Source: Siphonodentalium dalli (taxonomy: Eukaryota; Mollusca; Scaphopoda; Gadilida; Siphonodentaliidae). Taken from it: a stretch of 64,000 nucleotides of DNA. Where the stretch lies: NCBI GenBank assembly GCA_032622095.1, contig CP136065.1:63657094-63721093 (forward strand). The letters are read 5' to 3'. The position numbers were made by a program, and so were the translations under genes. The notes beneath the pieces were generated by a model. The model was given only the letters and a program-made list of their open reading frames with translations. It did no database searches and was not told the DNA's origin. Shown piece after piece: positions 4,544-60,694 of the stretch (position 1 is its first letter; each line of letters opens with the position of its first letter).

Positions 4544-4935
4544 CCCTTTACCCAACAAACCGGCCAAAACCGGCCAAATAAAGCTTCAACAGCCTAAAAT
4601 ATCTTCGGTCTGTCTCAATAGAACCATACAAATATGGATATCATTGGAACCGGCTCCTTGACCACATTGTGATAGTTACAGTTATGCCCTGTGCCAATGC
4701 ATTCTCTTATATATGCGAGTCGACCATAGGTCGCCTCGCATATATAAGAGAATGCATTGGCCTAAAAAAAATCTTTTTTTAACACTTTTTACCATTTTTT
4801 CTTACATTCTTTAACAATTTTATAATTTTTAATGTGTTAAGCCAATGCATTCTCTTATATATGCGAGGCGACCTATGGTCGACTCGCATATATAAGAGAA
4901 TGCATTGGCACAGGGCCCTTCTGTTGGGTAAAGGG
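4544..4935 (+). mobile_element. piggyBac-type MITE A1 with paired hairpins
   Basis: The 392-bp element is flanked by TTAA at 4540-4543 and 4936-4939. Its TIRs are CCCTTTACCCAACA / TGTTGGGTAAAGGG. TTAA targets and CCC termini are typical of piggyBac-superfamily elements. Inside are two 69-nt near-perfect hairpins, 4693-4761 and 4841-4909, separated by a T-rich spacer. Each has a 27-nt outer stem (GCCAATGCATTCTC...), an upper stem TCGACC/GGTCGC with one mismatch, and a 3-nt loop. The second hairpin is the reverse complement of the first. No coding capacity. Confidence 0.88.
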
Positions 4936-4939
4936 TTAA

Positions 4940-7240
4940 TGAAATTTAATATGGATATTCACCATCACAAGGGCTTTCAATGAAGTGCTCGAGATATTCG
5001 GGTTTTCCCTTTTTATAGGAAAACTTTAGTATAACAGCTTCGGGTCCGAGTAACTCTTGCAATAATTAAAACAACACAATATTTGTTATCTGTAGCATGT
5101 ATATACTGTATGTTTGTTTCCTTCAACCAATATCATCAAGTTAGACAAAGTGTGTTTGCAAAGTGCCAGCATTTTTTATGTATTTGGAAATTTAATGGGT
5201 AAAAATACTCCACGGTTCAGTCATTATTTCTCATAGGTTGTTAACACCATGCATTCCGCTGGCATGTGTCAGGTGTGAATGTGTAGTTTGCCTCCAACTT
5301 TTAGACTCACCACTGCCACCAGAGCAATATAGCCACGCGTCCCTGTGTGTAATGCATTTAAAAGCTACACGGAGGACCCTCCCCGCCCTTAATTTGCTAT
5401 ATAAACATTTCTTGCTGGTATAAGAAAATCAATGCATTCATTTCGTATGTGTAATAATATTACGATTAAAAAACTAATGCACCACCCCTAAATCGTGTTC
5501 ATAAAGCTATATAAGTACGCACTTGCTGAAAACTTAGTCAGGATCACAAGAGTATTTAATATCCATAATTACACTTTCGCCCCACGGTTTAATCTACGAT
5601 TTTAGTCATGACTGAGAGCGTTAAACATTTTTGAACAATGCATGCATATGTTTATGTATTTACTGTAATGACTTCATGGTATGTGAACATGAAAGGATAT
5701 TGAAACTTTCATGAATGAGCGTCTATAGTCATAAAACTTAATCTGCACATCTCCTTACTAATATGCTAAACATTTCAACGATGTTATCTATGTTTTCACA
5801 ATGATAGCGGAATGTCTTCCCGGTGTTGTTTGTATACAGTCGAGTGCCTTAACATGCTCTATGCATGCGAAAATAATTTAAGAAATGCGTGAGGGTGTCT
5901 TATTGACTCAATATTTGATATATATCGATGTACGTGGGAGGGTTATTTCAAATATGCTGACCCGCAACTTATGCTGTCGCCCACAAACTTTGCACGCCCG
6001 AGATGTTGTAGTTAGGCACATGGTCCAGGATGACTACTTCCCGCCAAAATAGTAATAATAACTCAACAAATAAACAATCAAAACACACAAATTCAATATT
6101 GTTTTGTTTAATCTATGTGCGCGAAGTCTGTATGCATGATAACAAAATTCACGTATATTTCTTTGGATAAAATACATGGCACTTTGTCAGAAATGATTTT
6201 GAATGCTCATGACAATTCAATTTTGCTATCTCATAATGGGCGTTACGTTTGTAGTTTTTGCCACGCTACTTTATTTCCGGTCGCATATACTTAATTTAAT
6301 AAGATGTGTTCCGTTGTTTGGGGATGCATCACAACCGCATTTTCGCGCGCGACTATTTGCTCCTGATGTCATATTCAATTCATGGTCTTGGCAACAGGCC
6401 TGAGGCGTCTCTCCTCCGTGCTTTTAGCCAACATGTTCAACAGTTGGGCTTTTCAATATGCAATATTTATAGATGCATGCATCCAGTATACACCTCATCT
6501 GTATAGTGTACCGGCATCTATGTTTTTTATATATGTATTTACGTTGTACTGTGACTGCAACTGAATTCATTCAATAAAAAACAATTGTATAACCACATCA
6601 GTGTAACATGTTTCCTATGACCACATTATATGGCGTGTGCATGTCTTCAGTTTCCATGGCGACCACAAATTACCCATAAACTATTTGACTCCCATTAATG
6701 ACTTCGTTTTAAAACCAGAAGAGGATGTATTTCCACACAGTGAATGCGTTGACGGAATGGTTAGAGTCCTCATCGATATCTTAGACAGGTCCTACTTGTT
6801 AAAATCAAGCTAATGAGATAATACCTAAATTGCTTCATCATCTTAATGACCAATTACGAATTATCAACCGATCCATATCCCAATTATGCCAGGCAACATG
6901 ATAGGGGAAGCTCCTTGAAATGATGACCTTTGAGACACACCCGGCATGCGTTCACATGCCTATGTTTCCCCACAAGGCCCTTTTGTTAACGGCCTACGGC
7001 TAATTGATTCACCGGGAGCACGTTTCGGTTTTTAATCACTATCAGGGATTTTAAGTGGTTTCGTTTGTGTATAGAACTAAACGGTGCCGTCGGACTATGG
7101 CATCGTTATTATCATCGCTCCGCTTTGGATCTTTTCAAAAACCCTGTCCATTGTTACCCTCGTCGATATTGTCTATATTAGGAAATATTGATACAAACAA
7201 TAAGGTGCAGAATGTACGCTGACAGCGTACTCCAAATGTC
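4940..7240. other. AT-rich non-coding stretch
   Basis: No repeat family recognised. A 66-codon frame at 6203-6403 begins with a hydrophobic run (MGVTFVVFATLLYF) but has no splice donor or homology that I can support, and two other frames overlap it. Confidence 0.45.
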
Positions 7241-7870
7241 GATGTTGCGTGTCAGATGTCTGTTGCTGGACCCATATATCCTCTTGCGATTTACAAAATC
7301 AATTGATGGATCTGAGAATAGTCCACAGCGGATTTCCTGTATTGCAATGCATGGTTTATCATTGGTACACTCATGGGACATTATGTTTTTATGAAAGGCG
7401 ATTGAATTGCGTACTTCATTGCTAACTTTATTAATGTGTGTTGGTTTCAATATTTGGGTATATTATCGAGGATCGTCGATAGGTTTGATGTTGGAAAGAA
7501 CACAGGCTATTGCACAATAGCGGGTAGAAACACCAACTCCCACACAAGCAACAGGAAAATTTACGTGTCCATACGAACACATTGATAGCCTCCATTTGCC
7601 TGGTATAGGAACACCACTGAGTCCAATCTTGTGATGATTCACCTGCATTAGTTGACCTTGACGTATTGATGTAACGTGTCAGGTGCATGCTGCTGGACCC
7701 ATATTTCCTTTTGCGATGTTCACAATCAATTGATGGATCTGAGAATAGTCCACAGCGGATTTCCTGTATTGCAATGCATGGTGTATCATTGGTACTCTCA
7801 TGGGACATTATGGTATTGTGACAATGCGATTTAATTGTGTAGTTCATTGCCAACCTTGTTAATGTTGGCT
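7241..7870. repeat. Direct duplication, two ~203-bp copies
   Basis: 7241-7443 recurs at 7668-7870 (offset ~427 bp). The inner part, including GATCTGAGAATAGTCCACAG, is nearly identical; the edges are diverged. On the minus strand both copies read in one frame as a related peptide (CIAIQEIRCGLFSDPSID), but one copy shifts frame upstream and I recognise no domain. The ~220 bp between copies is unique. The repeat could be a decayed exon duplication or plain repeat DNA. Confidence 0.65.
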
Positions 7871-7916
7871 GAGATTTTATGTTACTTGTAACCGTTGTAT
7901 TCGCATGCCACTACAA

Positions 7917-8020
7917 TCGGCGATGTTATAGTAGAATGCTACATTCCCCAGGTTGGCATAGCACCTGAGAACTAAACAATCAGTTTTCACATACCGTACA
8001 AGTCCATAAGATGTCTTTAA
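7917..8020 (+). repeat. Dispersed repeat ending at TTAA (pairs with 26849-26958)
   Basis: The ~105 bp beginning TCGGCGATGTTA and ending ATGTCTTTAA is similar to 26849-26958. MITE C1 starts exactly after the TTAA in this copy. Confidence 0.6.
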
Positions 8021-8290
8021 ACCTTCCATGACTGGAACTTCCTGAAATTGTGCGAAAACCCTATGCCAATGCATTGTCTTATATATGCGAGTCTCCCACA
8101 GGGAGTCTCGCATATATAAGAGAATACTTTGGCCTAACAATATATATCTTGACTTTATAATCCATTGTATGCTCTTACATATGTATATGCGAGGCTCCTT
8201 GTGGGAGACTCTCATATCTAAGATAACACACTGGCATATGCTATTTAATGTTGCACAAGTGCAACCCCCGTCATAAACCCCATGAAAGGG
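8021..8290 (+). mobile_element. piggyBac-type MITE C1 with paired hairpins
   Basis: The element is flanked by TTAA (8017-8020) and TCAA (8291-8294, one substitution). The ends are ACCTTCCATGACTGG and CCCATGAAAGGG, degenerate class-C TIRs. Two hairpins share the outer stem of class A, but the upper stem is TCTCCCA/TGGGAGTC instead of TCGACC/GGTCGC. They are separated by ~40 bp. No coding capacity. Confidence 0.78.
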
Positions 8291-8294
8291 TCAA

Positions 8295-9352
8295 CGGACT
8301 TTATCTGTCTTGTAAAATAATGGAAAATCCGCCTTTTTGAAGATCCCAAGCCGCATTAAGTTCCGACTCACTGTGCTACTGAGAGCCACGTGTTGGTTTA
8401 ACCTCAATAAAATTCTCATAATTTGCTGCAGCCGCGCCGCCCAAGATGCTAGAAAAGTGAACTTAAGGCCCAGTCAGATGAACTCATTATCTAGGCCATG
8501 GTTGTATGATTCAAAAATTAATTTTTTGTACCTAGTGACATGGCCATTTCTAGGAAGCTCATTACGGTAATTCGCCATCAACAAATCACGCTCTATATAC
8601 TTCGGTCGTCCGCTTCGTGATGAGTGTATCTAAAGCATCGCACCACGATCGTTAAATACCCATAAACCCCAGACAGCCCAGGTTTCGTACTCGATAATCT
8701 TCGTACTAGACGGTGGTTCTGAGTTGCGCTGTTTACCCATTTGGTGGATGTGTTCCAGTAAGTCTACCAAGATCCCATTAATTAGTAAACAATCTTACTA
8801 TCATATACACGGTGCTTAATTGCCGTTCGAAGACACGAAGCCAGCTGCTCGGTCTGACAGCAAAAGCATACTCACAAGTCGTTTTTCGCGCCAAAGGCTG
8901 TTTTGTGATGAGCACCGAACCTTTAGTTTACACACGTTGTATTAGTAGAATGTGTTTGGTGTGCAATGAAGCACCAAGTAGTAACACCAGTTAGTTTTCC
9001 CCAAAGATCGCTCGCGACTCTACTCTCAAAATGCAAGGCAGAGTTCAGTCCAGTGTTACACCGGTCTGACCACTGCCATTACGTGTTGAAGAGTTTTGTC
9101 GGTTACACATCATTCTGATGTGGTTACGTCCGCCCATAAGGACGGTTCTCCTGATACAGGAGGAATGTACAGAGAAGGTAAAGGTAAAGGTCTGATTCTA
9201 TATATCTAGCCAATTTCCAAATTAAAATGGACAGTTCTGTTTCAAAATTTAGTTTCTAAATAAAGAAACATGTTTTTAATTCAGCTTGAGGTGATTATCG
9301 AGGTGCGAAATTCGGACCAGGCAGTAGGTCTTAAATATCCGTTGCATGATAA
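8295..9352. other. Non-coding stretch
   Basis: Nothing recognisable. Frames at 8337-8570 and 8812-8994 have no motif. Confidence 0.45.
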
Positions 9353-9462
9353 CCCTTTTTATACTAAATAGATTCTAAAATATACTCTGGAATAGTCTAT
9401 TATTCATTTCTGAAAAATTTCTAAGGCAAGTATTCGTAAATGAGTATTTAGTAAAGAAAGTG
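9353..9462 (+). mobile_element. piggyBac-type MITE B1, short and degenerate
   Basis: Begins ATAA|CCCTTTTTATACTAAAT and ends ATTTAGTAAAGAAAGTG|TTAA. These are class-B TIRs (CCCTTTCTATACTAAAT) with substitutions. At 110 bp it is shorter than the other B copies, so internally deleted. Confidence 0.65.
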
Positions 9463-9466
9463 TTAA

Positions 9467-10552
9467 TAAAGAGTCACTTGTCACACCCACGAATGTCCCC
9501 TCTGGACTCGTCTTGCTAAATATTGTATACCGGATGTCCTGCCTCTAAACAAATACTTGAGGCAACGCTGGAGCCACAGGTTTGACCCACGACAATTTTC
9601 CAATATTTCATTGATGTCTTCGTTTGAACCTTGGCGTGTTTGGTGACTGTAAATACCTGCTCAACGCCCAACCACCCCCACTATGTAAAGCGTTATCGCC
9701 ATTTAATATCCTCAACACATGACATGAAATAACCTAATGAATATCTCACCAAGATATATGTGGTGTTCTATATTTATTTATATGGGGTGTGAATGTACGT
9801 TAGATATCGACTCCACCGTTGTCGTGCTGTAGTACTCTCACTATCTATTTGCATAATTCATTCATGAATATCTATGAAAGGCCCGACGCATTATACCGCA
9901 GTACGAAACTCTTTTCTCTCTGGCTTTTGTTAACTCTGACGCCCATATTTTCAATACCAATTTGTGGTCTTTACAATTACATGTGTCTGCGTAACTGACA
10001 CCAATCTATATAGTGGTCCATATCATACCATATATCGTGTGTGTGGCAAAATGTGTAGATTTGTTGGGCATTATTTCGCATGTGGTATATCACATATACA
10101 ATAAATATGTGGTCTCGCTTTCTTAAACGTTTATAATTCTAGATTTTATATAATCTTGAATCAGAGACACATGTCAACAAACTTTTAAGAGATGTCATGT
10201 GAAAGTCATACCTTCTCAGTATGTTAAGTTGCTATATCATGAAGCAGTCAACCACGACTAAGATACCCAAGCCTCACAATATAAAACAGCAAAACGTGTT
10301 ATATGCATGTGCTTATTATGTGTATATTGGAAATAAAAGTAATCTATACTATACTTTCAACACGCATTGATATAATTCAGCTCCTTCGCTTATTAATTTT
10401 AAAAAAATTACTATTTTAAAAACATTATACTGTTTGACTCTGATGTGTTCGACTGTTTTTCGATCGAACGTCTAACTTTAATCGTGTTTATGTCGAATAC
10501 GTGAGACACCAGATGTTTACCGTGTGTTTATTTGGATATATACATCTATATC
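9467..10552. other. AT-rich non-coding stretch
   Basis: No coding frame or repeat recognised. Confidence 0.45.
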
Positions 10553-13806: not shown

Positions 13807-14260
13807 ATATGTGACCCGCCATATCAAATCCAGTCGTAAGTCGGGATTTTTTTTACCCTGTGCCAATGCATTCTCTTATATATGCGAGTCGACCATAGGT
13901 CGCCTCGCATATATAAGAGAATGCATTGGCCTAACAATTTTAATAATTTTTTCTTGTATTCTTTAACAATTTTATAATTTCACACACACAGAGCCCCAGA
14001 CAAACATGAGCAGACGACACTCTTCTATATGCTTCTATATATGTGTGGGGCTCCCTGCATGGTAATGGATGTTTTTTATTTTATGTCCTAAAAATTGTAA
14101 GAAACATTTATTTAAAAAAAATGATAAAAAATTGTTAGGCCAATGCATTCTCTTATATATGCGAGGCGACCTATGGTCGACTCGCATATATAAGAGAATG
14201 CATTGGCACAGGGTAAAAAATCCCGACTTACTACTGGATTTGATATGGCGGGTCACATAT
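13807..14260 (+). mobile_element. Double-hairpin element D, TIR TATGTGACCCGCC
   Basis: The outer ~45 bp form an inverted repeat: ATATGTGACCCGCCATATC through GTCGGGATTTTTT, mirrored at the right end. This TIR is unrelated to the TTAA classes. Inside lies the class-A cassette: two 69-nt hairpins with TCGACC/GGTCGC upper stems, bounded by CCCTGTGCC and GGCACAGGG. The T-rich spacer is interrupted by ~110 bp of unrelated sequence (about 13980-14090). No clear target-site duplication. Confidence 0.8.
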
Positions 14261-16722: not shown

Positions 16723-17178
16723 CCCTTTACCCAACAAACCGGCCAAAAACGCCCAAATAAAGCTTCAACAGCCTAAAATATCTTCGTTCTGTCTCAATAA
16801 CACCATACAAATATGAATATCATTGGAACCGGTTCATTGACCACATTGTGATGGTTACAGTTATGCCCTGTGCCAATGCATTCTCGTATATATGCGAGTC
16901 GACCATAGGTCGCCTCGCATATATAAGAGAATGCATTAGCCTAACAAAATTCTTTTTTAACACTTTTTACCATTTTTTCTTACATTCTTTAACAATTTTA
17001 TAATTTTTTCTTACATTTTTTATAATATTTTTATAATATTTTTCTACATTCTTTGACAATTTTATCATTTTTAATATGTGTTAAGCCAATGCATTCTCTT
17101 ATATATGCGAGGCGACCTATGGTCGACTCGCATATATAAGAGAATGCATTGGCACAGGGCCGTTCTGTTGGGTAAAGG
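16723..17178 (+). mobile_element. piggyBac-type MITE A2 with paired hairpins
   Basis: TTAA at 16719-16722 and 17179-17182. It has class-A TIRs; the right end has lost one G (GTAAAGG). It is 456 bp because the T-rich spacer contains an extra ~60 bp. The two 69-nt hairpins are as in A1. Confidence 0.86.
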
Positions 17179-17182
17179 TTAA

Positions 17183-17716: not shown

Positions 17717-18108
17717 CCCTTTACCCAACAAACCGGCCAAAACCGGCCAAATAAAGCTTCAACAGCCTAAAATATCTTCGGTCTGTCTCAATAGAACCAT
17801 ACACATATGGATATCATTGGAACCGGCTCCTTGACCACATTGTGATAGTTACAGTTATGCCCTGTGCCAATGCATTCTCTTATATATGCGAGTCGACCAT
17901 AGGTCGCCTCGCATATATAAGAGAATGCATTGGCCTAAAAAAAATCTTTTTTTAACACTTTTTACCATTTTTTCTTACATTCTTTAACAATTTTATAATT
18001 TTTAATGTGTTAAGCCAATGCATTCTCTTATATATGCGAGGCGACCTATGGTCGACTCGCATATATAAGAGAATGCATTGGAACAGGGCCGTTCTGTTGG
18101 GTAAAGGG
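17717..18108 (+). mobile_element. piggyBac-type MITE A3 with paired hairpins
   Basis: TTAA at 17713-17716 and 18109-18112. At 392 bp it has the same length as A1 and is near-identical to it, so both moved recently. It has class-A TIRs and two hairpins. Confidence 0.88.
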
Positions 18109-19189: not shown

Positions 19190-19590
19190 CCCTGTGCCAA
19201 TGCATTCTCTTATATATGCGAGTCGACCATAGGTCGCCTCGCATATATAAGAGAATGCATTGGCTTAACACATATTAAAAATGATAAAATTGTCAAAGAA
19301 TGTAGAAAAATATTATAAAAATTGTTAAAAAATGTAAGAACAAATTATAAAATTGTTAAAGAATGTAAGAAAAAATGGTAAAAAGTGTTAAAAAAGAATT
19401 TTGTTGGGCCAATGCATTCTCTTATATATGCGAGGCGACCTATGGTCGACTCGCATATATAAGAGAATACATTGGCACAGGGCATAACTGTAACCATCAC
19501 AATGTGGTCAATGAACCGGTTCCAATGCATGATATCCATATTTGTATGGTGTTATTGAGACAGAACGAAGATATTTTAGGCTGTAGAAGG
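19190..19590 (-). mobile_element. Class-A MITE A4, truncated at both ends
   Basis: Reverse orientation relative to A1. It starts at CCCTGTGCC of the first hairpin, keeps both hairpins and the long spacer variant, and continues through the ATATTTTAGGCTG block. Both TIRs and the TTAA flanks are missing. Confidence 0.8.
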
Positions 19591-28885: not shown

Positions 28886-29167
28886 AGACCAACAATAGAT
28901 TGAAATAGCTCTGATAATTTGATTTGCGTACCAGTATTTTGTATTCGATTGATTGTTTTTAGACCAAAAGTGGAATGTTTTCCTAGTCTCTGACAAATCG
29001 TTGGACTGAAAATGGCCATCAGTTGATAAATGTCCAACCATATGGGGGCTGTTAGAACGGAAATGTCTGACATCGTGAAATCTCAATCGACAGGTCCCCA
29101 TTGTTGGCAGCCGGTTCTTGCTAAGACCGAGCGAATAATGAAATGAATCGATTATACCCACTTGGTT
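28886..29167 (+). repeat. Dispersed repeat H1
   Basis: Shares ordered blocks with 32004-32330 and 31646-31735: AACAATAGATTGAAAT, GTTGATAAATGTCCAACC, TCTCAATCGACAGGTCCCC and GATTATACCCACTTGG. Its right edge is replaced by MITE C2. Confidence 0.65.
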
Positions 29168-29385
29168 CATTCTCTTATATGTGCGAGACTCCAATATAGG
29201 GAGTCTCATGGGAGTCTCGCACATATAAGAGAATATATTGGCCTAACAATATTTGCAATTGACCTTGTAAGCCAGTGGATTCTCGTATATATGTGAGGTT
29301 GTCTATGTGAGACTCGCATATATAAGAGCATGTACTGGCACTGGATCTTTAATGCTGCACAAGCGCAGCTCCCGTCATGGAAGGG
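29168..29385 (+). mobile_element. MITE C2, left end missing
   Basis: Starts inside the first hairpin stem (CATTCTCTTATATGTGCGAG), carries both class-C hairpins with GGGAGTC-type upper stems, then CTTTAATGCTGC and the right end GTCATGGAAGGG|TTAA (29386-29389). Confidence 0.78.
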
Positions 29386-34167: not shown

Positions 34168-34271
34168 CCCTTGATTTTCTCAGGAATCAAGCCTGAGTTT
34201 TGTGTGCCTGTCATTTGCAGAATGAGGTTCCCAGAGTGTGAATTTAGTGACGCTATCCCGCATAGGAATGG
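34168..34271 (+). mobile_element. Second TTAA-type insert containing an element E piece
   Basis: Begins CCCTTGATTTTCTCAGG immediately after GTAA and runs to GGAATGG before TTAA (34272-34275), where the paralogous flank resumes. From ~34202 it holds the left part of element E (GCCTGTCATTTGCAGAATG). It may be a short MITE placed next to B3, or a composite with it. Confidence 0.5.
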
Positions 34272-34497
34272 TTAAATAATAGAGCAAAACCACAACCAAG
34301 TCGACAAAGTGTCAAGTCATGGCTCCATTGGAGAGTATATGATGAGGAGTAAGATTGACCTTATGACACCGCCAGCATGTTATTGAAGCCGATCGATGAT
34401 TTGTAACCATATCCATAATCAATAACCAATATCCTCACACCCACAAGATCCGACTCCGCAATTTCCCGGTGTGTTTCATCCAAGTCTGCAAATAGTG

Positions 34498-34908
34498 TGT
34501 CTGTCATTTGCAGAATGAGGTCCTCAGAGGGTGAATTTAGTGATGCTATCCCGCACAGCGGGCTAGCATCACCAAATGCACCCCCTAGGAATCTCTTTCT
34601 GCTTATATCTCAACTGATATGGGAGACCTGGGATCAGATTGAATTCCCCAAAGTTGAAGTTGGTGATGTTCATCCATTAGTAACCTCGCTTATGCATTTT
34701 ATCTTCAGCTAATTAGGGGATATAGAAACTTCCCAGAAGGGAAAAGGTAACTAAAACAATGTTAATTTGAGAACATAAACACTTCCCAGAAGATGAAGCC
34801 TAAGCAGAATGAGGCCCACAGAGGGTGAATTTGGTGATGCTAGTCCGATATTCGGGATAGCATCACTAAATTCACCCTCTGGGCACCTCATTCTGCAAAT
34901 GACAGACA
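34498..34908 (+). mobile_element. Double-hairpin element E1
   Basis: The 411-bp element has a TIR of ~26 bp: TGTCTGTCATTTGCAGAATG and its mirror ending CAAATGACAGACA. Behind each end lies a hairpin built on AGGGTGAATTTAGTGATGCT and its reverse complement. The centre is ~220 bp. There is no TTAA and no coding capacity. Related copies are at 34202-34262 and 59927-60171. Confidence 0.8.
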
Positions 34909-36049: not shown

Positions 36050-36311
36050 CCCTTTCATGGCGGGAGTGTGCTGGTGGTGCATTAAAGAAACTGTGCCAGT
36101 GCATTCTCTTTTAAATGAGTGTTTCATATAGGGATCATCGCATATATAATATAATTCCGATATATAATATAATTCAATGTCAAGGTAAATATAGTTAGGC
36201 CAATGTATTCTCTTATATATGCACGGATCCCTATGGTGGATTCGCATATATAAGAGCATGCATTGGCAAAGGGTTTTTGCAAAATTTCATGAAGCTCCAG
36301 TCATGGAAAGG
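36050..36311 (+). mobile_element. piggyBac-type MITE C3 with paired hairpins
   Basis: TTAA at 36046-36049 and 36312-36315. It starts CCCTTTCATGGCGGGAG and ends CTCCAGTCATGGAAAGG. The first hairpin is damaged by substitutions; the second (36208-36267) is well kept. 262 bp, no coding capacity. Confidence 0.82.
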
Positions 36312-36699: not shown

Positions 36700-37310
36700 G
36701 CGTATCGACTCGTATCGGTATCGATGTGTGTCCTATCACCACCATAGTAATTCAGCAGGACACACACACACATAGCAAGACAACTTAACCAGGGGTGATT
36801 ATACTTATTATACTTAAAATAGATGTGTGTCCTATCACCACCATAGCAATTCAGCGGGACACACACACATAGCAAGACAACTTAACCAGGGGTGAGTATA
36901 CCTTATATAGATGTATGTCCATCACCACCATAGCAATTCAGCAGGACACACACACATAGCATGACAACTTAACCGGGGGGTGATTATACCTTATATATCG
37001 ATGTGTGTCCTATCACCACCATAGCAATTCAGCGGGACACACACACATAGCATGACAACATAACCGGGGGTGATTATACCTTATATAGATGTGTGTCCTA
37101 TCACCACCATAGCAATTCAGCAGGACACACACATACATAGCAAGACAACTTAACCGGGAGGTGATTATACCTTATATATCGATGTGTGTCCTATCACCAC
37201 CATAGCAATTCAGCAGGACACACACATACATAGCAAGACAACTTAACCGGGGGTGATTATACCTTTTATAGATGTGTATCCTATCACCACCATAGGAATC
37301 ACTGAACTAA
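36700..37310 (+). repeat. ~90-bp minisatellite, seven copies
   Basis: GATGTGTGTCCTATCACC starts units at about 36724, 36822, 36910, 37001, 37088, 37182 and 37272. Each contains CACCATAGCAATTCAGCGGG, a CA run, and CAACTTAACC followed by GGGTGATTATACC. A separated partial unit lies at 37747-37835. The unit resembles the right end of inverted-repeat element I at 62.5 kb. Confidence 0.93.
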
Positions 37311-39195: not shown

Positions 39196-40764
39196 CAGTA
39201 TATAGTCTATATTGTATGATACATGATGTGGTTTGAATGGAATGAATATTATTAAACCAGCTCAGACATTCCTCTGATATCGAGAGCAAAGTGCTTGAGA
39301 TACTGATTTATCTCCTGTATTCTCATCAAGTCATTCGTGTGAAAAATCCAATAAACCAACAATGACAAGCTTGCAATAAACGTCCCCAAAGACCCGAACC
39401 GCGCTTCATGGAACAATCTGTTATGATCCCAGTCAATGAATATTTGAACACCGCCGATGAACTCGAGCTTTTCATTACGTTTTCTGTTTGTTTAATAATT
39501 CATGTTATGCATTCTCTCACTTCGCCGTTCCTTGGTGTTGTATCGTGTTTAGATACATATACGATCGGCCTCTGCTGTTGTTGTGAAGTCCCACACAGTC
39601 ACAAATGACTTATTCATGTTTTCCATCGGATTGTCCGACCAGAACGAAACATCCCCGATCGCGTGTGACGCTCGCTTAACAGGATTTTTCCTGCCTCGGT
39701 CTCAGGAGGGTTGGATATCGTCTAGGTTGAGAGAGGTCAATAACACAGCGACTTGACTGTTGACTTTGTATTAGTAACCTGGCGCTGACTAGAATGGCGA
39801 GGAAGGCTTCCGATAACGAACTTGCTATCCTTGCATGCCAGTTCTAGACGCGTTATATGCGTTATAACATATATGACGGTATATCAGCATGCATGCGCCT
39901 ATATCGAAAACGAACGCTAGATTTGTTACATGTATAAAGTCTCAATGTTTCACTGACGTCAATCTCGCACAGCATGGGTGGATCTGAGACGAATAGAACA
40001 CGCTTCATACATTACAACGCCCATGCACAAAGCTCGCACGAAAAAGACAAACTTGGCAACACTCGTTTCTAAATTGATTGATGTTCCCAATCTCGTAAAT
40101 GTTCAGACTTCAAACGAAAAATCGGCAGTGGGTCTTTTTTATGTCCACGAATGTACCCCAGAATGTAAGTTTAATGGTCGATGGGGAAGTGCTGTGGTCT
40201 GACTTTTGCATAGAATTAACGACAACGACGCCTAAACGTGAGACTTGATGTAAACTGTAGATAACTAAATCGTGATTTTTATACGAATTAGTTCCCTTCC
40301 TCTTTAGTGATTGCTATCTCACAGATTGATTAATATTGCCTAACCAAATAACTGGTGGTGATGGTGCGATCATAGCTGGAAAAGGACTGTAGAATCAAGT
40401 ATAAACATCGTATACAAATCTTTAAAATGTATACACCCCGAATACATGTATATGTTATGTTCGTCATCAACTTTGTATGTGTCCAAATTTTAATGGGAGA
40501 GGGCCGGATGTAAGTTGTGAAAAGCATGTGCCTTAATCCCACTTGTAATATTATATTTTAATTACCATAAGATATGTTTAAATAAAATTTCAAAATGGAA
40601 TATCACCACACTCCATGCAGCGTATGACAAAGAATTGGGAAACGACGACGCAACAATGGAAACACGATGACTGACAATATGTGACACAATAGGACGATAA
40701 ACTTGCGTTTAATATAACCGGATATAATAAACGGGAGCATGTGCTTTCTTCTGGTGGGACTGGG
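39196..40764. other. Non-coding stretch
   Basis: A 74-codon frame at 39978-40202 has no recognisable motif. Nothing else seen. Confidence 0.45.
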
Positions 40765-40933
40765 AGCCTCGCATATACAAGAGAATACGTTGGCTTACAA
40801 GGTCAAGGTAACTATTGCTAGGCCATTGTATTCTCTTATATATACGATGCTCCATATGGGGGACTCGCATCTATAAGAGAATGCATTGGCACAGTTTTTG
40901 GCAAAATTTCAGGAAGCTCCAGTCATTAAAGGG
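40765..40933 (+). mobile_element. MITE C4, left half missing
   Basis: Begins in the second arm of the first hairpin (GGGAGCCTCGCATATACAAG). The second hairpin (~40831-40891) is intact. It ends GAAGCTCCAGTCATTAAAGGG before TTAC. Confidence 0.75.
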
Positions 40934-43199: not shown

Positions 43200-45000
43200 C
43201 TTTATTTGACGTTGACCAATTTAAACTTGGCAATTTTATCAAAAGTAAATCGCAATGGACGGATATGTACGTGCTCAAATTTGATGGGCCACCCCTTGGA
43301 GACCAGTACTTGAGGTCTAACAACTTTATTTAGTACTCAACACTTCTGTGCGACCTCTTGGGGACTATGTTGCCAACGCGTGAAGTTGAGTAATTTAAAC
43401 TTGGCAATTTTCTCAAAACAAATTGTAATAGGCGGATCGGCATGATATCAACACTGATGGGTCACATTATGGAGCCAGTTATTGAGGTCTAACAACTTCA
43501 TTTGGTGCTCAACAATCATTTGTGACATTTTGGAAACCAAGAAAGGTTGAGTGTCTTCACCAGGTTGCCAATGCGTGACGTCTGGCGCCTGAAGTTGAGT
43601 AATTTAAACTTGGCAATTTTCACAAAACAAATTGCAATAGGCGGATCGGCATGATATCAACACTGATGGGTCACATTATGGAGCCAGTGATTGGGGTCTA
43701 ACAACTTCATTTGGTGCTCAACACTCATGTGTGACAATTTGGAAACCAAGAAAGGTTCAGTGTCTTCACCAGGTTGCCAATGCGTGACGTCTGGCGCCTG
43801 AAGTTGAGTAATTTAAACTTGGCAATTTTCACAAAACAAATTGCAATGGGCGGATCGACACGATTTCAACGCTGATGCTTGAAGTGCTTGAAGTCTAACA
43901 ACTTCATTTAGTGCTCAAAACTCGGTGCGACCTTTTGGAGACCAAGAAAGGTTCATTGCCTTCACCAGGATGCCAATGCGTGACGTCTGGCGTCTTAAGT
44001 TGACCAAATTAAACTTGGCAATTTTCTCAAAACAAATTGCATGCAGTGAGCGGATCGGCACAATGCCATGTTCAACGCCCACGTGGAACATCTTGGAGAC
44101 CTAGAGAGCTTCATTGTCTCCACCAGGCTACCAATGGTTGAAGTCTGACCACTGATGTTGCCAATCAGATTATCGCAGGTTTCTGAAAACCAATATGGTC
44201 AACGCTTCTTCGACGCCCATGGTCAACCTCTTGGAGACTATGCTATATCGAATGTCTACATCAGACTTCCATTATGACACCAACTGTTGGACTTGGATTC
44301 GTTCAGCTATTGGCGTGATCATCAATCAGATCCGCCTCATCAGAACAGTATGATGTTTGGAAATAGAACATATCAATACCACTGCTGGATAATATGTTCC
44401 TGCCACAGGCAATAGTCGTTGTGTTCCCGTGCTTGACATATGAGTATGACGCTTGAATCTGACCAATTCTCTGACAAGCAACTTCGTTAAGAGGGTCGAC
44501 ACACATTCACCAATTTTTGGTGCGACACGACAGCTTGCATATATCTACCACGATTACAATGCCTCGCGGCTGACGCTTAACGTTACATTTCTAACCCCGT
44601 TAACCCGTGCTATACTAAATACTCATTGACGGGTAGTTTCCTCCAATGGATATGAATAATTCTTCTCTTCTATTATCTGTTCTTCTGCCTGCATGGCGTC
44701 GGCTTTTATTATCTAAATGAATTATAGACCATTACACTGTATAGTTTTATAACTAAATGTGATAATGCATTTAGTATAGGAAGGGTTAATTGTCTAAACA
44801 AAAATGCATTGGGCGGATGGGTACATATTCAACACTCACGGGCGACCTCTTTTATACCAAGAGGGCTTGACTGTCTTCATCAGACGGCCATTATAACATC
44901 AACCGAATGAAAAGTTCATTATGTTTGCAAGCGATTCGACTTGGAGTCGTTCAGCTATCGGCGTGATCATCAATCAGAGCTGCCTCATCACAGCATTACG
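43200..45000 (+). repeat. ~209-bp satellite, interrupted by a MITE
   Basis: AATTTAAACTTGGCAATTTT anchors lie at 43218, 43392, 43601 and 43810, with AAATTAAACTTGGCAATTTT near 44005. The last full period is 209 bp and adjacent copies are very similar. Diverged units continue to ~44340 and again at 44790-45000 (GTTCAGCTATNGGCGTGATC at 44301 and 44949). MITE B4 sits between. Confidence 0.85.
44604..44785 (+). mobile_element. piggyBac-type MITE B4
   Basis: TTAA at 44600-44603 and 44786-44789. It starts CCCGTGCTATACTAAATAC and ends GCATTTAGTATAGGAAGGG. 182 bp, lying within the region of the 209-bp satellite. Confidence 0.85.
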
Positions 45001-46043: not shown

Positions 46044-46260
46044 TAGTTTGACTGGAGCCTCCTGAAATTTAGCGAAAACCCTGTGCCAATGAATTCTCGC
46101 ATATATAAGAGAATGCATTGGCCTAACAATATTTACCTTGACATTGTAAGCCTGTGCATTGTGTATGCGAGGCTCCCTATGGGAGACTCGCATATATAAG
46201 AGAATGCACTGGCACATGATCTTTAATGCTGCACCAGCGCAGCTCCCATCATAAAAGGAG
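46044..46260 (+). mobile_element. MITE C5 with one shortened hairpin
   Basis: Left TTAA at 46040-46043; the right flank TAAC is decayed. GACTGGAGCCTCCTGAAATT leads into CCCTGTGCC. The first hairpin has lost its upper stem and loop (GCCAATGAATTCTCGCATAT joins directly to the descending arm). The second hairpin is intact. Confidence 0.72.
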
Positions 46261-48767: not shown

Positions 48768-49229
48768 GTCTCATCCTGACATAGTCGCATGGTTACGGGG
48801 TCATACTGACGCAGTCGCATAGTTACGGGCCTCATCCTGACACAGTCGCATGGTTACGGGGCTCGTCCTGACACAGTCGTATAGTTACGGGGCTCGCCCT
48901 AGCACAGTCGCATAGTTACGGGCTCGTCCTGACATAGTCGCATAGTTACGGGGCTCATCCTGACGCAGTCGCATATTTACGGGGCTCATCCTGACGCAGT
49001 CGCATAGTTACGGGGCTCGTCCTGACGCAGTCGCATGGTTACAGGGCTCATCCTGACACAGTCGCATTTGTTACGGTGCTCAACCTGATGCAGTCGCCTA
49101 GTTACGGGCCTCATCCTGATGCAGTCGCATAGTTACGGGCTCGTCCTGACATATTCGCATAGTTACGGGGCTCGTCCTGATACAGTCGCATAGTTACGGG
49201 GTCGTCCTGACATAGTCGCATAGTTACGT
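48768..49229 (+). repeat. ~34-bp satellite, about fourteen copies
   Basis: Units read GGGGCTCATCCTGACGCAGT then CGCATAGTTAC with few changes (CTCGTCC/CTCATCC, ACACAG/ACGCAG). It lies between the two copies of the 356-bp duplication. Confidence 0.95.
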
Positions 49230-53349: not shown

Positions 53350-53701
53350 CCCTTTACCCAACAGAAGGGCCCTGTGCCAATGCATTATCTTATATATGCG
53401 AGTCGACCATAGGTCGCCTCGCATATATAAGAGAATGCATTGGCTTAACACATTAAAAATTATAAAATTGTTAAAGAATGTAAGAAAATGCATTCTCTTA
53501 TATATGCGAGGCGACCTATGGTCGACTCGCATATATAAGAGAATGCATTGGCACAGGGCATAACTGTAACTATCACAATCTGGTCAAGGAGCCGGTTCCA
53601 ATGATATCCATATTTGTATGGTTCTGTTGAGACAGACCGAAGATATTTTAGGCTGTTGAAGCTTTATTTGGCCGGTTTTGGCCGTTTTGTTGGGTAAAGG
53701 G
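53350..53701 (-). mobile_element. piggyBac-type MITE A5, hairpins nearly fused
   Basis: TTAA at 53346-53349 and 53702-53705, class-A TIRs, reverse orientation. At 352 bp it is the shortest full class-A copy: the spacer and the base of one hairpin are deleted, so the second hairpin begins at TGCATTCTC directly after GTAAGAAAA. Confidence 0.86.
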
Positions 53702-53705
53702 TTAA

Positions 53706-54470
<765 letters not shown>

Positions 54471-55336: not shown

Positions 55337-55341
<5 letters not shown>
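54544..55341 (+). repeat. Dispersed repeat J, copy 1
   Basis: Starts CTAGAAGGTGACCCGACTTC after an AT run. It ends with the phrase TTTCATCGAAATCGGCTCGG, a CA/CCC microsatellite and CAGATCTTCCAAAATATA. Such a tail (a 'CATCGAAATCGG' motif, then short repeats) is known from SINE/LINE-like repeats of several invertebrates. Not coding. Confidence 0.7.

Positions 55342-55377
<36 letters not shown>
55338..55377 (+). repeat. AT microsatellite
   Basis: About twenty AT units between two copies of repeat J. Confidence 0.95.
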
Positions 55378-55378
<1 letters not shown>

Positions 55379-55738
55379 TAGAAGGTGACCCGACTTCGTC
55401 CGGGCTATTCAAAAACCAAATTTCAAGTCGATAGCTCCACCCGTTTCCGAGATCTGGTCTGCGCATGCGCGAAGCTGGCGTCGCACGGGTTCGGCGACCC
55501 GATAAAATTCGTATCCGGGGCAAGATACATTCACATACCAAATTTTAAGTCGATAGCTCCACCCGTTTCCGATATCTCGTCTGCGCATGCGCGAAGCGGG
55601 TGCCGCACGGACAAATTAATATGCCCATGCCACCCCCCGGCCGAAAATACCACCATTGAAATCGGGTCGGCCGTTTTCGAGTTCATCGCGAACACACACA
55701 CACAGACAGACAGATCTTCCAAAATATAGAATAGATAT
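55378..55738 (+). repeat. Dispersed repeat J, copy 2
   Basis: Same start (CTAGAAGGTGACCCGACTTC) and same end (CAGATCTTCCAAAATATAGA) as copy 1. It also carries an internal ~115-bp direct repeat (AAGTCGATAGCTCCACCCGT at ~55420 and ~55546). Confidence 0.75.
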
Positions 55739-56561
55739 TACTTTCACACTAATACAACCTTTCTGTAATTCTAAGTTTATTTTAAAAAAATCTGAAATAT
55801 CCCATTCCAACCACGCGTGAATATTATGCCATGTTCTTGTCTCCACGTTCCCGATATCAACTGATATCACCAAAAACATCAACAACGACTGACATTTTAA
55901 TATGGCTACTGTCGCGTGGTGGGATGGGGTAAAAATTATCCACGGAAACGACTCATATAAGTATATACGCTTGCTGTCGGATCCGATCCATGAAATCTTG
56001 CTTCATCATATAGTTGTAACTGTATATATAATGAAATTACATGGACTATATACTTTAGAACTAAACGACTACACGACACATGTAACTGCAGAAGTAGTCA
56101 GTGTATCACGAAACAGTACATTGATCAGGATTGGTCACATATATATAGTGATTGTGGTTTACGCCTATTGCATCAGCTATATTACCATGTATGGGATATC
56201 AGTGTTAGTCGCAGAATATATAACAATAAAATGTTTAATTTGACTTGGAAATCACAACACTCTAAATAAAACCACCAAACCTGGTCAGCAACCGAAAAAA
56301 ACTTGCACAGATACACGAAATATGATACTCTCCCTTAACCGAAACATCAATCAAAGCGTATTGAAATTTGAATCAGTTCGGACAGTCTTGTGTGATTTAT
56401 GACGGCTTAATTATCAGGGGACACCAACTGTTTACTAAGATTTCACTCCAGAATAATGGTTGCAACACAAAGTAAACAGAACACAATTGACCACAGAACA
56501 ATTGTCACGTGGTCCAAACAAGTTACCAAATTTCATTGTAAGTATTTGGGTCCTCTGATCC
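55739..56561. other. Non-coding stretch with a doubtful 113-codon frame
   Basis: The frame at 55902-56243 (+) begins with ATG in good context and predicts a hydrophobic C-terminal region (IYIVIVVYAYCISYITMYGI), with AATAAA at its end. No homology is recognised, and the length is expected by chance. Confidence 0.35.
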
Positions 56562-56565
56562 TTAA

Positions 56566-56782
56566 CCATTTCTATACTAAATCATGATTGATGAATAGTT
56601 ATCCCTTAGGACATGTTCATATAATAAGTTCAACAAACAAAATGGAACTTATTATCTAAACATAACCCTCAATAAATAGGGCTCCTTCAATAGGGCCCCT
56701 TCAATGTATCTGTCGTCTGCTTTTATCTAAATCAATAATAGACCATTCCGATGTACACTTTTTAACTGACTGGGATAATCCA
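56566..56782 (+). mobile_element. Class-B MITE B6, right end decayed
   Basis: TTAA (56562-56565), then CCATTTCTATACTAAATCA. The interior has CTTATTATCTAAACAT and GTCGTCTGCTTTTATC as in B2. The right TIR is not recognisable beyond ACTGGGATAATCC. Confidence 0.68.
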
Positions 56783-57688
56783 TATCACGCAACAAGAACT
56801 CATGGTGGCACTTGTTGCCCCCTGAGTGGCTGCCGTCGGCAGCATCACATGCACACACGTGTAACCACTTCTGCATCTTGCGCGTGATTAGTTGACTCTC
56901 GAAGGATTTATCAAATAATCAGCGAAACATCGCGTCTCCCACCTGGCTGAGGCACCGCGCCCACACTGGCTTGATGCTTCGGAGCCGCAGTCATTATGAG
57001 ATATTACAGGTGGCAGTGGTTCATGCGTGAGTCGAGAGCACGGTGATCTTGTCAGGCAGGGCTGATAACAAGTGAACGAATCGGAGTCTCTCCACATGAA
57101 CACATTCCCTGTTGGATCGAATCTCGACACGAAAAGCCACCGTCACGCAATGGCGCGAATGTATGATGTATCGCCGGTAGTTATAATAATTGCTCTACAT
57201 TTAAAGTACTATGCAGGGTTCAAGACCAGATATCCAGTTACAACAACAACATACACACATAAATTTTAAATCGTTTTCTCTTAGTGTAAACATATTTTTA
57301 TTTTCAAATCCAAACAAATAACATAATATATACTGATGACACATATATGCAAAATAGAAGAGTTGATGCATGTAAACGAGGATCAGACAACAAGCCCGAG
57401 GGCTTATATGAAGTCGTTTTCTCTTAGTTATGTTGGTGATCCTATATAATTTACTGATAACTCAATAGTATTATTATGCACAGCATATAGAGTTATATTT
57501 ACAGTGTATGTTCATGAAGTAATATTATTTTGACTATCGAATTCGGGATCATTTTTGTGTAATCATCAGCACACAGAATGTTCCAAACATGTTGACAAGA
57601 AGATATGAATTTTAAACCAGACCTGGAAATACCCAGGAATATAATTGTGTGTAACTGTCCAAGTGGGATAAGTTATATGCATAAAGTG
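56783..57688. other. Non-coding stretch
   Basis: Nothing recognisable beyond a short repeated CGTTTTCTCTTAGT at ~57271 and ~57415. Confidence 0.45.
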
Positions 57689-57950
57689 TTAACACTCATT
57701 GACGCGAGTAATTCCCGTCGGGAAGGTAATACGTCCAACAAAGTGAACAAACGGCTATTGAACTTATTATCTGAACATTTCACACAAATTAATGGGAATG
57801 TTATTTCATAAACATCCCTCCTGACGAACAACATATACCATTGCAATGTATATTTTTTATAACTAACAGGATAATCCATTTTACTCGAGTCATTTTCATT
57901 ATAATTACCACGTTATTTACATCGTTCATAGAGAGATGTTTTATTGCCTC
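57689..57950 (+). repeat. Class-B MITE fragment plus a short dispersed repeat
   Basis: 57689-57800 has B-type words (ACTCATTGACGCGAGTAATT, GAACTTATTATCTGAACATT) without TIRs. 57885-57945 (TCATTTTCATTATAATTACC, GTTCATAGAG) matches 60190-60245. Confidence 0.5.
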
Positions 57951-58116
57951 CTTGGAGGAGAGATATGTGTACAAGTATATACATGTTTATGAATACAATA
58001 GTGACATTCAAACTATATCAATTTCACTTATATAAGGTCGGTTGACCTTTTGCATTGGTCAGATGGAGCAAATGACACACACAAATATGAGACAATGAAT
58101 AAATAAACGTTTCTCA

Positions 58117-58428
58117 TCACACATGAGTTCCAGAGTAGGATGACAGGAATGAAAATGTAGGAATTCCGAATATATTTATGATTTTATACCAGAATTCATT
58201 TCTGAGTTCCTGTATGTGCGGAGATAAGCAATGGAGGTACATGTGTGACATGAGGTCAGAGTATTGGCACCCACAATGCTTGCATAATGCGTTGTTGTCA
58301 TATGTCGTTCTGGAGATGATGTTTGCCATATAGAGAGCTTTAGCTTTGTACTTTGGGAGTTCCCTGCATAGTAGCCAGCCTCTCCAGATCGACATAGGAC
58401 AGAATTTAACCACCCGAAAGAAATTCAG
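58117..58428 (-). pseudogene. C-terminal fragment of a non-LTR retrotransposon reverse transcriptase
   Basis: The minus-strand frame reads RGWLLCRELPKYKAKALYM, then LCKHCGCQYSDLMSHMYLHC. This C-x2-C...H-x4-C arrangement is the zinc knuckle found at the C-terminus of many LINE ORF2 proteins. It is followed by ~30 residues and a stop. The catalytic RT and endonuclease regions are absent: a stop lies just upstream and microsatellite sequence follows. It is a 3'-end remnant, typical of 5'-truncated LINE copies. Confidence 0.6.
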
Positions 58429-58494
58429 TTATTCATTTGTCGAATCACACCATGGTGCTTGATATGCGAAGTTGTTGATCTTCTCTTTTACAAT

Positions 58495-58570
58495 TCTCTC
58501 TCTCCCTCTCTCTCTCTCTCCCTCTCTCCCCCTCTCTCTCTCTCTCTCTCTCTTAGGGGGGGGGGGGGTT
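58495..58570 (+). repeat. CT-rich microsatellite and poly-G run
   Basis: CT units with CCC interruptions to ~58553, then a run of 13 G. It abuts repeat K1. Confidence 0.92.
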
Positions 58571-58905
58571 GACAATTTTTGCCCCAATTTGTTTACATGA
58601 TATATTCTATCAAGGTTGTAACACAGTGTTTTCAGAATATAACTTGCATATACATAAATATAACAAAATATTTTCATATTGACCTATAATATGTATAATT
58701 TGGGAATAAATGTGAAAAATACTGTAATTTGCCATAATTTCCACCTAAAATACCATTCAATTTGCCCGAATTTGACAGAAAATGAATTTTCCCGAAATGT
58801 TGAGCTTTCCAAACTTTTTGGGGGGCTGCAGACCTCCCAACCCCCTCCCATGGCCCGTACGGCTATGTTACTGACAGCCGCCCCCGAGTTCTTCATTGCA
58901 GACAT
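58553..58905 (+). repeat. Dispersed repeat K1
   Basis: A G-run is followed by TTGACAATTTTTGCCCCAAT, GTTGTAACACAGTGTTTT, CCCGAATTTGACAGAAAATG and GGGGGGCTGCAGACCTCCC. A reverse-orientation copy lies at 61425-61733, also with a poly-C/G junction. Non-coding. Confidence 0.75.
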
Positions 58906-59252
58906 GAAATCAGATGGGAAATCATGTTATTTATGTTCTTATTAACGTCTGATCCAGTGTCCATCAGTGGAGGTTAGTTACACGGGTTATTCTGGCCCAA
59001 GAGTCCAGGCTGTGATATTAAAGGCAATGACTATCTCCCAATGAGAATTCAAATGGCTAACCAGTGACCGTCGTCCCACTTCGCACGACGTGGGGTGAAT
59101 ATCATCATGAAGTCCGTCATTAAAAATCACGAACATGGCGTTCCCAATGGATATTATAACAATTCGGAATAAACACCATGAAAATATAATCTGATTTCCA
59201 CCCTGCTGCTCGAGCTATCATAGCGTCGCTAACCTCTCTCGCGTTATATAAA
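58906..59252. other. Non-coding stretch
   Basis: Nothing recognisable. Confidence 0.45.
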
Positions 59253-59484
59253 CCTTTCATGACTGGGGCTTCCAGAAATTTGCGAAAACCCTGTGCCAAT
59301 GCATTCTCTTATATATGTGAGTCCCACGGAGAATGAGAATGCATTGGCCTAACAATATTTACTTTCACATTGTAAGCCAATGCATATCTTATATATGCGA
59401 GGCTCTCTATGGAGACTCATATATATAAGATAATACACTGACACACTTTAATGCTGCACCATCGCAGCTCCCGTCATTAAATGG
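59253..59484 (+). mobile_element. piggyBac-type MITE C6 with degraded hairpins
   Basis: Starts CCTTTCATGACTGGGGCTTC after a decayed flank (ATAA) and ends CTCCCGTCATTAAATGG|TTAA (59485-59488). Both hairpins carry deletions; the first has lost much of its descending arm. Confidence 0.75.
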
Positions 59485-59488
59485 TTAA

Positions 59489-59926
59489 ATGGCTTTTTGT
59501 GGTCTTGAAATCGCGATTTATTTGTAACATTTCGCTTCTCTGCTATCACGTGTCCGACATCCACATCAGATAGTTTGTTCACAAATTATTGTCCACGCTG
59601 CCTTGTGTGCATGCATATCTTTGGTCTTGGTGAACAGAAAATAATTGGAAAAGTCAGATTACATGTTCGCTGCAATGGAAACCTCAATTTCCTTTCATCA
59701 AAAGTGTGGACCGAGATGATTTGCCTGATTACATGCATGGACCTGAACGATAAACTAATTCACGATCAACAGCAGGAAATGGAAAGTTCTCCAACTGAAC
59801 ATGTGCGATCACACAAAATGGATAAGTTCACATAAACAGAATAGTTCGTTTCTCAGGCATTTTCTCATGCAGTTTTGGTTGCTCGAAAGCATGTAAATAA
59901 GTTTCCCAAACAGGTCTGGAAATAGT
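59489..59926. other. Non-coding stretch
   Basis: An 86-codon frame at 59575-59835 has no recognised motif. Confidence 0.42.
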
Positions 59927-60171
59927 TTGTCTGACATTTGAAGAATGAGGTCCCCAAAGGGTGAATTTACTGATGCTAGCTCACTGTGCGGGGTAGCATT
60001 ACTAAATTCACCCTATTTTTCAGAAGATAAATTGCATAATCGAGGTGACTAATGGGTGAACATCACCAACTCCAACTGGGGAACTTCGATCTTATCCTAG
60101 GTCTCCTATAAGAATCTATGCCTAAGCAGAATGAGGTTCCCAGGGGGTGAAATTTGGCGTTCTCATTCCGT
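59927..60171 (+). mobile_element. Element E2, diverged copy
   Basis: TTTGTCTGACATTTGAAGAATGAGG start, hairpin on GGGTGAATTTACTGATGCTA and its mirror, and the right-side phrase CCTAAGCAGAATGAGG as in E1. The terminal right TIR is missing. Confidence 0.7.
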
Positions 60172-60266
60172 AAATTAGTTAATGACTCGAGTCATAAACT
60201 CATTTTCATTATAATTACCATGTTGTTTGGATCGTTCATAGAGCACGTGAATGTATTTTGCATTAA

Positions 60267-60694
60267 CCCTTTACCCAACAGAACGGCCCTGTGCCAATGC
60301 ATTCTCTTATATATGCGAATCGGCCATAGGTCGCCTCGCATATATAAGAGAATACATTGGCTTAACACATATTAAAAAATAATAAAATTGTCAAAGAATG
60401 TAGAAAAATATTATAAAAATTGTTAAAGAATGTAAGAAAAAATGGTAAAAAGTGTTAAAAGAAAGATTTTTTTTAGGCCAATGCATTCTCTTATATATGC
60501 GAGGCGACCTATTGTCGACTCGCATATATAAGAGAATGCATTGGCACAGGGCATAACTGTGACCATCACAATGTGGTCAATGAACCGGTTCCAATGATAT
60601 CCATATTTGTATGGTGTTATTGAGACAGACCGAAGATATTTTAGGCTGTTGAAGCTTTATTTGGGCGTTTTTGGCCGGTTTGTTGGGTAAAGGG
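60267..60694 (-). mobile_element. piggyBac-type MITE A6 with paired hairpins
   Basis: TTAA at 60263-60266 and 60695-60698, class-A TIRs, reverse orientation, 428 bp. It has the long spacer variant of A2 and A4. Confidence 0.87.

Follow-up and report, generated by a model that had tools for sequence, protein, structure and literature searches.

Foldback elements are built around a long internal inverted repeat. A second system relevant to the locus described here is that of the coral CMITEs. In the accessible portion of their original report (Wang et al., 2010; PMC2872659), these appear as piggyBac-like miniature inverted-repeat transposable elements (MITEs) of about 100 bp at TTAA targets, with about 1,600 copies in A. 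millepora, that fall into six families of terminal inverted repeats (TIRs) with CCCTTT or similar tips and share an interior of about 75 bp, which shows greater conservation than the TIRs. That portion of the report also describes one copy carrying the interior of another family, tandem arrays and piggyBac transposons in the genome, and its authors considered the origin of the CMITE interior a mystery. Further, piggyBac ends are reported to contain identical 19-bp palindromic sequences, and such a palindrome is bound by transposase C-terminal domains in a complex studied by cryo-electron microscopy (PMC11707139). Here, a stretch of 64,000 nucleotides of the scaphopod mollusc Siphonodentalium dalli (GenBank assembly GCA_032622095.1, contig CP136065.1; C5:63657094-63721093), referred to in its entirety as the window, was found to hold 13 MITE-like elements with a common hairpin interior, usually in two mirror copies (Table 1). 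The genome comprises 2,226,750,531 bp in 9 contigs (~2.2 Gb). The carriers of this interior are termed classes A, C, D and E according to their ends, and they are probably non-autonomous chimeras, that is, MITEs of at least four end classes that captured a common foldback module and were amplified with it.

Like the CMITEs in the accessible description, these elements share an interior across several TIR families, and that interior is more conserved than the TIRs between classes; the statement is confined to comparisons between classes because the 14-nt TIR on the long arm of class A is itself unchanged in 12 copies (0/165 changes). When compared by description with the same text, they differ from the CMITEs in size and copy number and in having a single hairpin or a mirror pair of hairpins as interior, a class that does not use TTAA, a cassette-free donor of one arm, and a test of source copies. 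To the extent of that text, the CMITEs are a precedent for the TTAA families and the same kind of phenomenon. With piggyBac and TTAA MITEs, the elements share the TTAA target, the CCCTTT tips, inverted ends, a large number of copies and the presence of piggyBac transposases in the genome, and they differ from them in an interior common across families and in a class with TA as target. They resemble foldback elements in an internal inverted repeat that is able to form a 75-bp stem, and are unlike them in their short distinct TIRs, their MITE size, arms that are each a hairpin, and the single arm of class E. No other description of a hairpin interior spanning TTAA and TA classes was recognised in the open-access literature, which was surveyed mostly by listing. 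Apparently new are the module with its palindromic form, the class that uses TA, a junction that can be read in the sequence, and the scale of the phenomenon.

The hairpin cassette and its carriers

The repeated unit begins with the edge CCCTGT, continues with a 69-nt hairpin and ends with CTAACA or similar. Within the hairpin, a T.C mismatch separates an outer stem of 27 bp from an inner stem of 5 bp, which is closed by a short loop. One unit is present in E, and a mirror pair around a spacer in A, C and D. A preliminary description of the window, made from its sequence, had reported two hairpins of about 69 nt with a common stem in six A, six C and one D element between positions 4544 and 60694, and this was confirmed. 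Its claim of a mirror arrangement is exact in A1 and D, where each hairpin has 69 nt and the reverse complement of the first reproduces the second exactly, but the two hairpins of the other A copies differ by point changes, and those of the worn C copies are truncated or contain indels. Similarly, the cassette edges had been described as seemingly constant, but one edge is usually altered in C. When C loci beyond the window are counted too, C hairpins are ~11% diverged, and the inner stem reads CTCCC/GGGAG in the C form versus CGACC/GGTCG in the A form, which amounts to two compensated base-pair changes. Because the second unit mirrors the first, the whole cassette can be folded in two ways, as two hairpins or as a single 75-bp stem, and it is at the base of this 75-bp foldback stem that the reproducible cassette edge of A and C lies. 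DNA folding of the A1 cassette gave -101.5 kcal/mol versus a shuffle mean of -18.25 (z -28). Additionally, one C-class element (L023-L029, contig C1 at ~540.6-546.2 kb) carries the hairpin unit in tandem with a period of ~97 bp and at least 7 units, and sits inside a segment that is itself duplicated.

The stem GCCAATGCATTCTC has 55 matches in the window at up to 3 mismatches (5.9 expected; none of 100 shuffles reached 55) and 43 at up to 2 mismatches. Genome-wide counts were made as exact matches and are hence lower bounds in which old C copies are under-counted: GCCAATGCATTCTCTTATAT occurs 156,189 + 156,038 times (reversed control, 0), the 20-mer of edge plus stem 152,002 times, and the A tips TTAACCCTTTACCCAACA 91,612 times. 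A G, as in class A, precedes 88,919 of the 152,002 exact edges, while patterns specific to D and E edges gave 15,871 and 14,449 matches, respectively; these three patterns leave about one-fifth of the edges unclassified, C having no separate pattern. Individual matches were listed for 100 places per pattern, from contig C1 onward, where tandem repeats occur.

The carriers comprise at least four end classes, with A, C and E bearing CCCTTT at TTAA and D bearing unrelated ends at TA. The preliminary description had distinguished three unrelated TIR classes; the difference in ends stands, but the number of classes is higher, and three of them have TTAA and CCCTTT in common. Class E, found outside the window, has a single hairpin and the ends TTAACCCTTTGAGTGCCAGG. 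CCCTTT tips occur in A, C and E, with variation among worn C copies. TTAA is present on both sides of 11 of 12 A copies, the duplicate C1_120966 being left out of both the target-site and the arm comparisons; the TTAA and TIR reported for A describe most copies, but neither side of the one at 19190 retains a recognisable TIR. For C, exact TTAA is found in 2/5 pairs, and 5/5 agree with it in at least three of the four letters, one duplicated copy accounting for two of these five pairs; for E-type elements 6/9 pairs have TTAA on both sides, made up of 3/6 cassette-bearing pairs (two of which are one duplicated copy) and 3/3 cassette-free pairs. The distance from tip to edge ranges from 20 to 143 nt within A alone.

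Class D was examined at 10 unique loci, namely seven from retrieval (ten retrieved, with three duplicated loci), the window copy, L047 and L049. As had been noted for the window copy, D ends are without TTAA: they read TA|TGTGACCCGCC, with TA on both sides at 7/10 loci (the exceptions being TA/AA, TT/TT and TA/TG) and TTAA on both sides at none of the 10. Because their tips lack CC[C/T]T, D elements are not of piggyBac type by the features tested, and with TA duplicated at 7/10 loci they show that feature of a TA-target MITE such as those of Tc1/mariner type. Some D copies lie in matching inverted flanks ~1.7-1.8 Mb apart (C1:1831470-1831971 with C1:3547719-3548220, and C1:1791619-1792128 with C1:3590452-3590950), which suggests a large inverted segmental duplication on contig C1.

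By their end lists, the first 100 exact edges on contig C1 included 32 A, 19 D and 28 E edges, and 21 were left over. Of these 28 E edges, 16 lie at 735-990 kb, in copies recurring every ~11.2 kb; A and E copies together show a regular spacing at ~735-985 kb, first of ~14.6 kb and then of ~11.2 kb, suggesting large tandem repeats. Among the 21 leftover edges, three (in L001, L011 and L019) are C, and the flanks of ten were read as five C, two A, one D and two that fit no class (L087 and L088); six others are preceded by G as in A, and one more repeats the L088 flank. A fifth end class based on L088 was rejected, as it has 2 matches genome-wide. In the retrieved sequence, 68 edge matches resolve into 2 inner arms and 66 outer edges, and all 66, which include duplicated loci and three assignments by eye (two TIR-less A sides and one worn C), could be placed in a context of class A, C, D or E. 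Hybrid A/D ends, considered as recombination intermediates, were likewise rejected: the 46 facing pairs among the matches listed for the first part of contig C1 were 34 A-A, 11 D-D, no A-D, and one A-E pair (680 bp), which could represent two elements.

A module shared among unrelated flanks

Two observations carry the argument that a module common to different transposon classes exists, as the preliminary description had proposed. First, the flanks of different classes, after removal of TTAACCCTTT, score like shuffles (one typed consensus per arm). Two comparisons lie above that pattern, with 27/500 shuffles as good for the short A arm against E, which is borderline, and 66/500 for D against E; the left and right arms of C, which are two ends of one family, gave 2/500. 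The 37 non-duplicate type-A hairpins, found in A, D, E and some C elements, show 28 changes from one 69-nt consensus, or ~1% difference. Second, and decisively, the arm of E occurs without the module. Cassette-free TTAA elements contain the 44-nt left arm with 91-95% identity, and the BLAST match stops at the cassette edge; of 16 matches to this arm, 6 are stem-free, four of them full-length. A cassette-free palindromic TTAA MITE with the E outer arm, termed E0, was found at L031:601-807 and in the L016-L018 region at 2118-2297. At the junction, CAACCCATAT is followed by TTCCTTGATC in the cassette-free form and by ACCCTGTGCC in the carrier, and no target duplication was read there. The other E arm lies without a stem within 460 nt in the L030 region at 926-966 and in the L011-L015 region near 2225-2266. 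Because both E arms also occur without the stem, with the match ending at the edge, E resembles a chimera in which two arms that existed beforehand were joined to half a cassette. The 460-nt scan covered the A-long, D, C-left, C-right and E arms, and in the retrieved sequence every match to the A-long, D, C-left and C-right arms (26, 14 and 14; 6; 37; and 29) has a stem within that distance.

These observations bear directly on the possibility that all carriers belong to one old MITE family, the ends of which diverged by point mutation while the hairpin changed most slowly; the preliminary description had named such a family as the finding under which its modular claim would fail. TTAA and CCCTTT are kept in A, C and E, C has diverged furthest among the carriers, and an A-type hairpin and a T-rich spacer are found in some of its copies, all as expected of a single lineage. 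Yet the flanks are unalignable beyond CCCTTT while the type-A hairpins differ by ~1%, D departs in both ends and target, and E arms in the cassette-free E0 elements contradict a common descent of ends and interior. Plain divergence of one family was rejected on the flank scores and the cassette-free E arms, and as an explanation it is exceedingly improbable: the classes were found not to be one family whose TIRs merely diverged, because they do not align beyond chance and the E arm occurs without the module.

The preliminary description further suggested that the cassette could itself be a mini-transposon lodged in others; the possibility considered here extends to a cassette that had such mobility until recently. 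Its defined symmetrical edges favour this, TA/TA at the D edges could be a target duplication, and the E and L087 edges are also preceded by TA. However, TA/TA is expected at D edges anyway because D is palindromic, and the pattern of an empty D element matches once genome-wide. TTAA lies directly on the edge at 342 of the 152,002 exact edges, with no facing pair among the 100 matches listed, and five flanks of such edges belonged to one C element, two D elements (mutated copies) and two without a class; V-S-TA precedes 102 edges, again with no facing pair among the 100 matches listed. No target duplication was read at the cassette edges of A or C, and E has one edge only. Exact-edge searches of the genome, with 100 places listed per pattern, returned no two-edged solo cassette, although a very old or edge-eroded solo element would escape them. 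A cassette with mobility of its own is thus not what the edges indicate, and we consider it very unlikely.

Constancy of the hairpin in source copies

Of 88 merged hairpin matches, 70 covered most of the model and went into the alignment; after 9 duplicated loci among these were dropped, 37 type-A and 24 type-C hairpins remained. Whole A elements were aligned from 13 copies (duplicate C1_120966 dropped) less one TIR-less copy, and in the resulting 12 copies substitutions relative to the majority amounted to 0.8-0.9% in the hairpins and 2.7% in the long arm beyond the TIR. Private changes were equally frequent in hairpin (13/1574 cells) and arm (11/1521; p=0.84). Sites with shared variants numbered 0/138 in the hairpin and 10/129 in the arm (spacer, 4/80), for which the Fisher p=0.0006 is too small a value since several of the 10 arm sites covary and n is 12 A copies. 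The statement that the stem is better conserved than the rest of each element therefore holds for shared variants among A copies and fails for private mutations. Resident copies mutate freely in the hairpin, and the source lineage kept the hairpin fixed as its arms changed. Because shared variants are absent from these hairpins and private rates are equal, constraint or re-capture acts on source copies; selection on active copies and re-capture of a standard module both fit hairpin constancy, and ongoing correction of residents does not. Cruciform-driven gene conversion in resident copies, which had been raised as a cause of the conservation, finds no counterpart in the 37 type-A hairpins, in which 27 changed cells include 0 compensated pairs.

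The same changes speak to whether the stems act as RNA, as a source of double-stranded RNA or small RNAs selected as such. The near-perfect 69-nt hairpins in very high number could be read in this way, as could the two compensated changes by which the A and C forms differ in the inner stem. However, 20/27 single changes in type-A hairpins break pairing and none is compensated, and in the 24 type-C hairpins there are 16 double changes, of which 8 pair, where chance predicts 9.15 double changes, a weak signal. Rfam returned no family at the gathering threshold, and a known RNA family was rejected on that ground. Judged from the sequence, an RNA function would be a most doubtful reason for the spread of the module.

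Transposases and a possible binding role

The piggyBac transposase domain PF13843 has at least 128 matches genome-wide, many in open frames (best E-value 2.2e-94), and these include groups of near-identical score and length, which suggests recent activity. Such piggyBac-type transposases look like plausible movers of A, C and E. No autonomous element with these ends or the hairpin was found in nine 800-nt 3' flanks of piggyBac open reading frames (ORFs), which contained no stem and no A tip and none of which extended to a recognisable TIR.

The hairpins could instead be cis-acting transposition sites, palindromes for a transposase or host factor, with their sharing due to selection for the site. 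The absence of shared variants from A hairpins is consistent with this, as is the range of hairpin number from one in E to at least 7 in the C array, which binding-site arrays may show. An internal-region role was proposed by the coral CMITE authors (PMC2872659), and the piggyBac-end palindromes reported to be contacted by transposase C-terminal domains (PMC11707139) make a binding role thinkable, by analogy, for A, C and E. That precedent leaves D unexplained: with its TA target and other ends, one transposase for all classes is unlikely. The distance from tip to edge also differs, even within A, and no autonomous element with the hairpin was seen in the nine piggyBac flanks. A cis-acting site is accordingly a possibility of some substance, though not the one we favour.

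Proposed origin of the chimeras

Under the capture reading, the module would have been taken up as filler during aberrant repair or replication of transposon copies. The edge would be defined by events at the base of a cruciform or snap-back structure, either cleavage or a switch of template, because the reproducible edge of A and C is the base of the 75-bp foldback. Each chimera may then have been amplified as a unit via transposases acting in trans, with the hairpin staying unchanged in source copies either through an aid to amplification or through re-capture. In a bolder version, the hairpin unit would belong to no single transposase and would act as a portable amplification aid: any cut-and-paste transposon that captured it would be amplified, for instance through template switching or repair where the cruciform forms, and cleavage at the base of its stem would let the unit pass from one transposon superfamily to another. 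We regard this version as unlikely; if it were true, the module would parasitise transposons while possessing neither an enzyme nor a target site.

Several points weigh against capture. Gain of the cassette by E versus its loss by E0 is not proven by sequence alone. Cassette-free relatives are known for E only, so that capture in A, C and D would follow by analogy with E, and the single genome-wide match to a cassette-free D pattern (L080), whose arms are unequal, may stem from a deletion. Two of the ten flanks read from unassigned edges, L087 and L088, fit no class. The support from shared variants is reduced by the inflated Fisher test and by two variants, each common to two copies, among all 37 type-A hairpins. 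The four-gamete test fails for 33/105 site pairs in A, suggesting frequent recombination or recurrent mutation among A copies, so that subfamilies are not clean. Finally, the piggyBac flanks yielded no autonomous partner, and a binding role for a single transposase does not fit D.

Other features of the window

The elements of the window are listed in Table 1. Another repeat family, without the cassette stem, is present at 34212-34901, at 59935-60154 and in L055, which flanks a piggyBac ORF on its 3' side. Members of this family have CATTTGCAGAATGAGGTCCCCAGAGGGTGAATTT and an inner palindrome, GATGCTAGCCCGC. Minisatellite arrays occupy 36719-37299, 43377-44041 and 48770-49228, with units of 88/178, 209 and 31 bp, respectively. 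The open frame at 1-444 (+) has a sub-threshold Pfam match to NRG2_N (22.7 bits versus a cut-off of 27). A 27-mer scan of viral contigs gave 0 matches, in a collection from which records close to this genome may have been excluded.

Table 1. Cassette-bearing elements of the window, with positions counted from its first nucleotide.
Element	Position	Strand	Length (bp)	Ends and flanks	Hairpins	Cassette edges
A1	4544..4935	+	392	TTAA both sides	4693-4761, 4841-4909	4687-4915
C1	8022..8290 (ends approximate)	+			8065-8133, 8163-8235 (variant)	
D	13810..14257	.	448	TA both sides; TIR TGTGACCCGCC	13862-13930, 14139-14207	13856-14213
A2	16723..17179	+	457	TTAA left, TAAG past matched right end	16872-16940, 17085-17153	
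A3	17717..18108	+	392	TTAA both sides	17866-17934, 18014-18082	
A4	19190..19590 (end approximate)	-		No recognisable TIR either side	19196-19264, 19408-19476	
C2	29167..29385	+		Left end not found	29167-29242, 29271-29339	
C3	36050..36311	-	262	TTAA both sides	36095-36154 (partial), 36199-36267	
C4	40759..40933	-		Left end not found	40759-40794 (half), 40822-40890	
C5	46079..46259	+		Left TIR eroded	46085-46122 (truncated), 46157-46213	
A5	53350..53701	-	352	TTAA both sides	53376-53444, ~53484-53552	
C6	59252..59484	+	233	ATAA/TTAA	59295-59348, 59376-59440	
A6	60267..60694	-	428	TTAA both sides	60293-60361, 60477-60545	

Implications

How MITEs gain interiors that are unrelated to any autonomous transposon is unsettled. 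With the E0 arm, the chimera E and the other carriers in one genome, and with a junction that is readable to the base, the capture of an interior becomes testable. That TTAA and TA classes both carry the module speaks against a function bound to one particular transposase. Should the module help amplification, it would be a general booster of transposons; should it not, it would be a clean case of filler that has hitchhiked to more than 150,000 exact edges in this genome.

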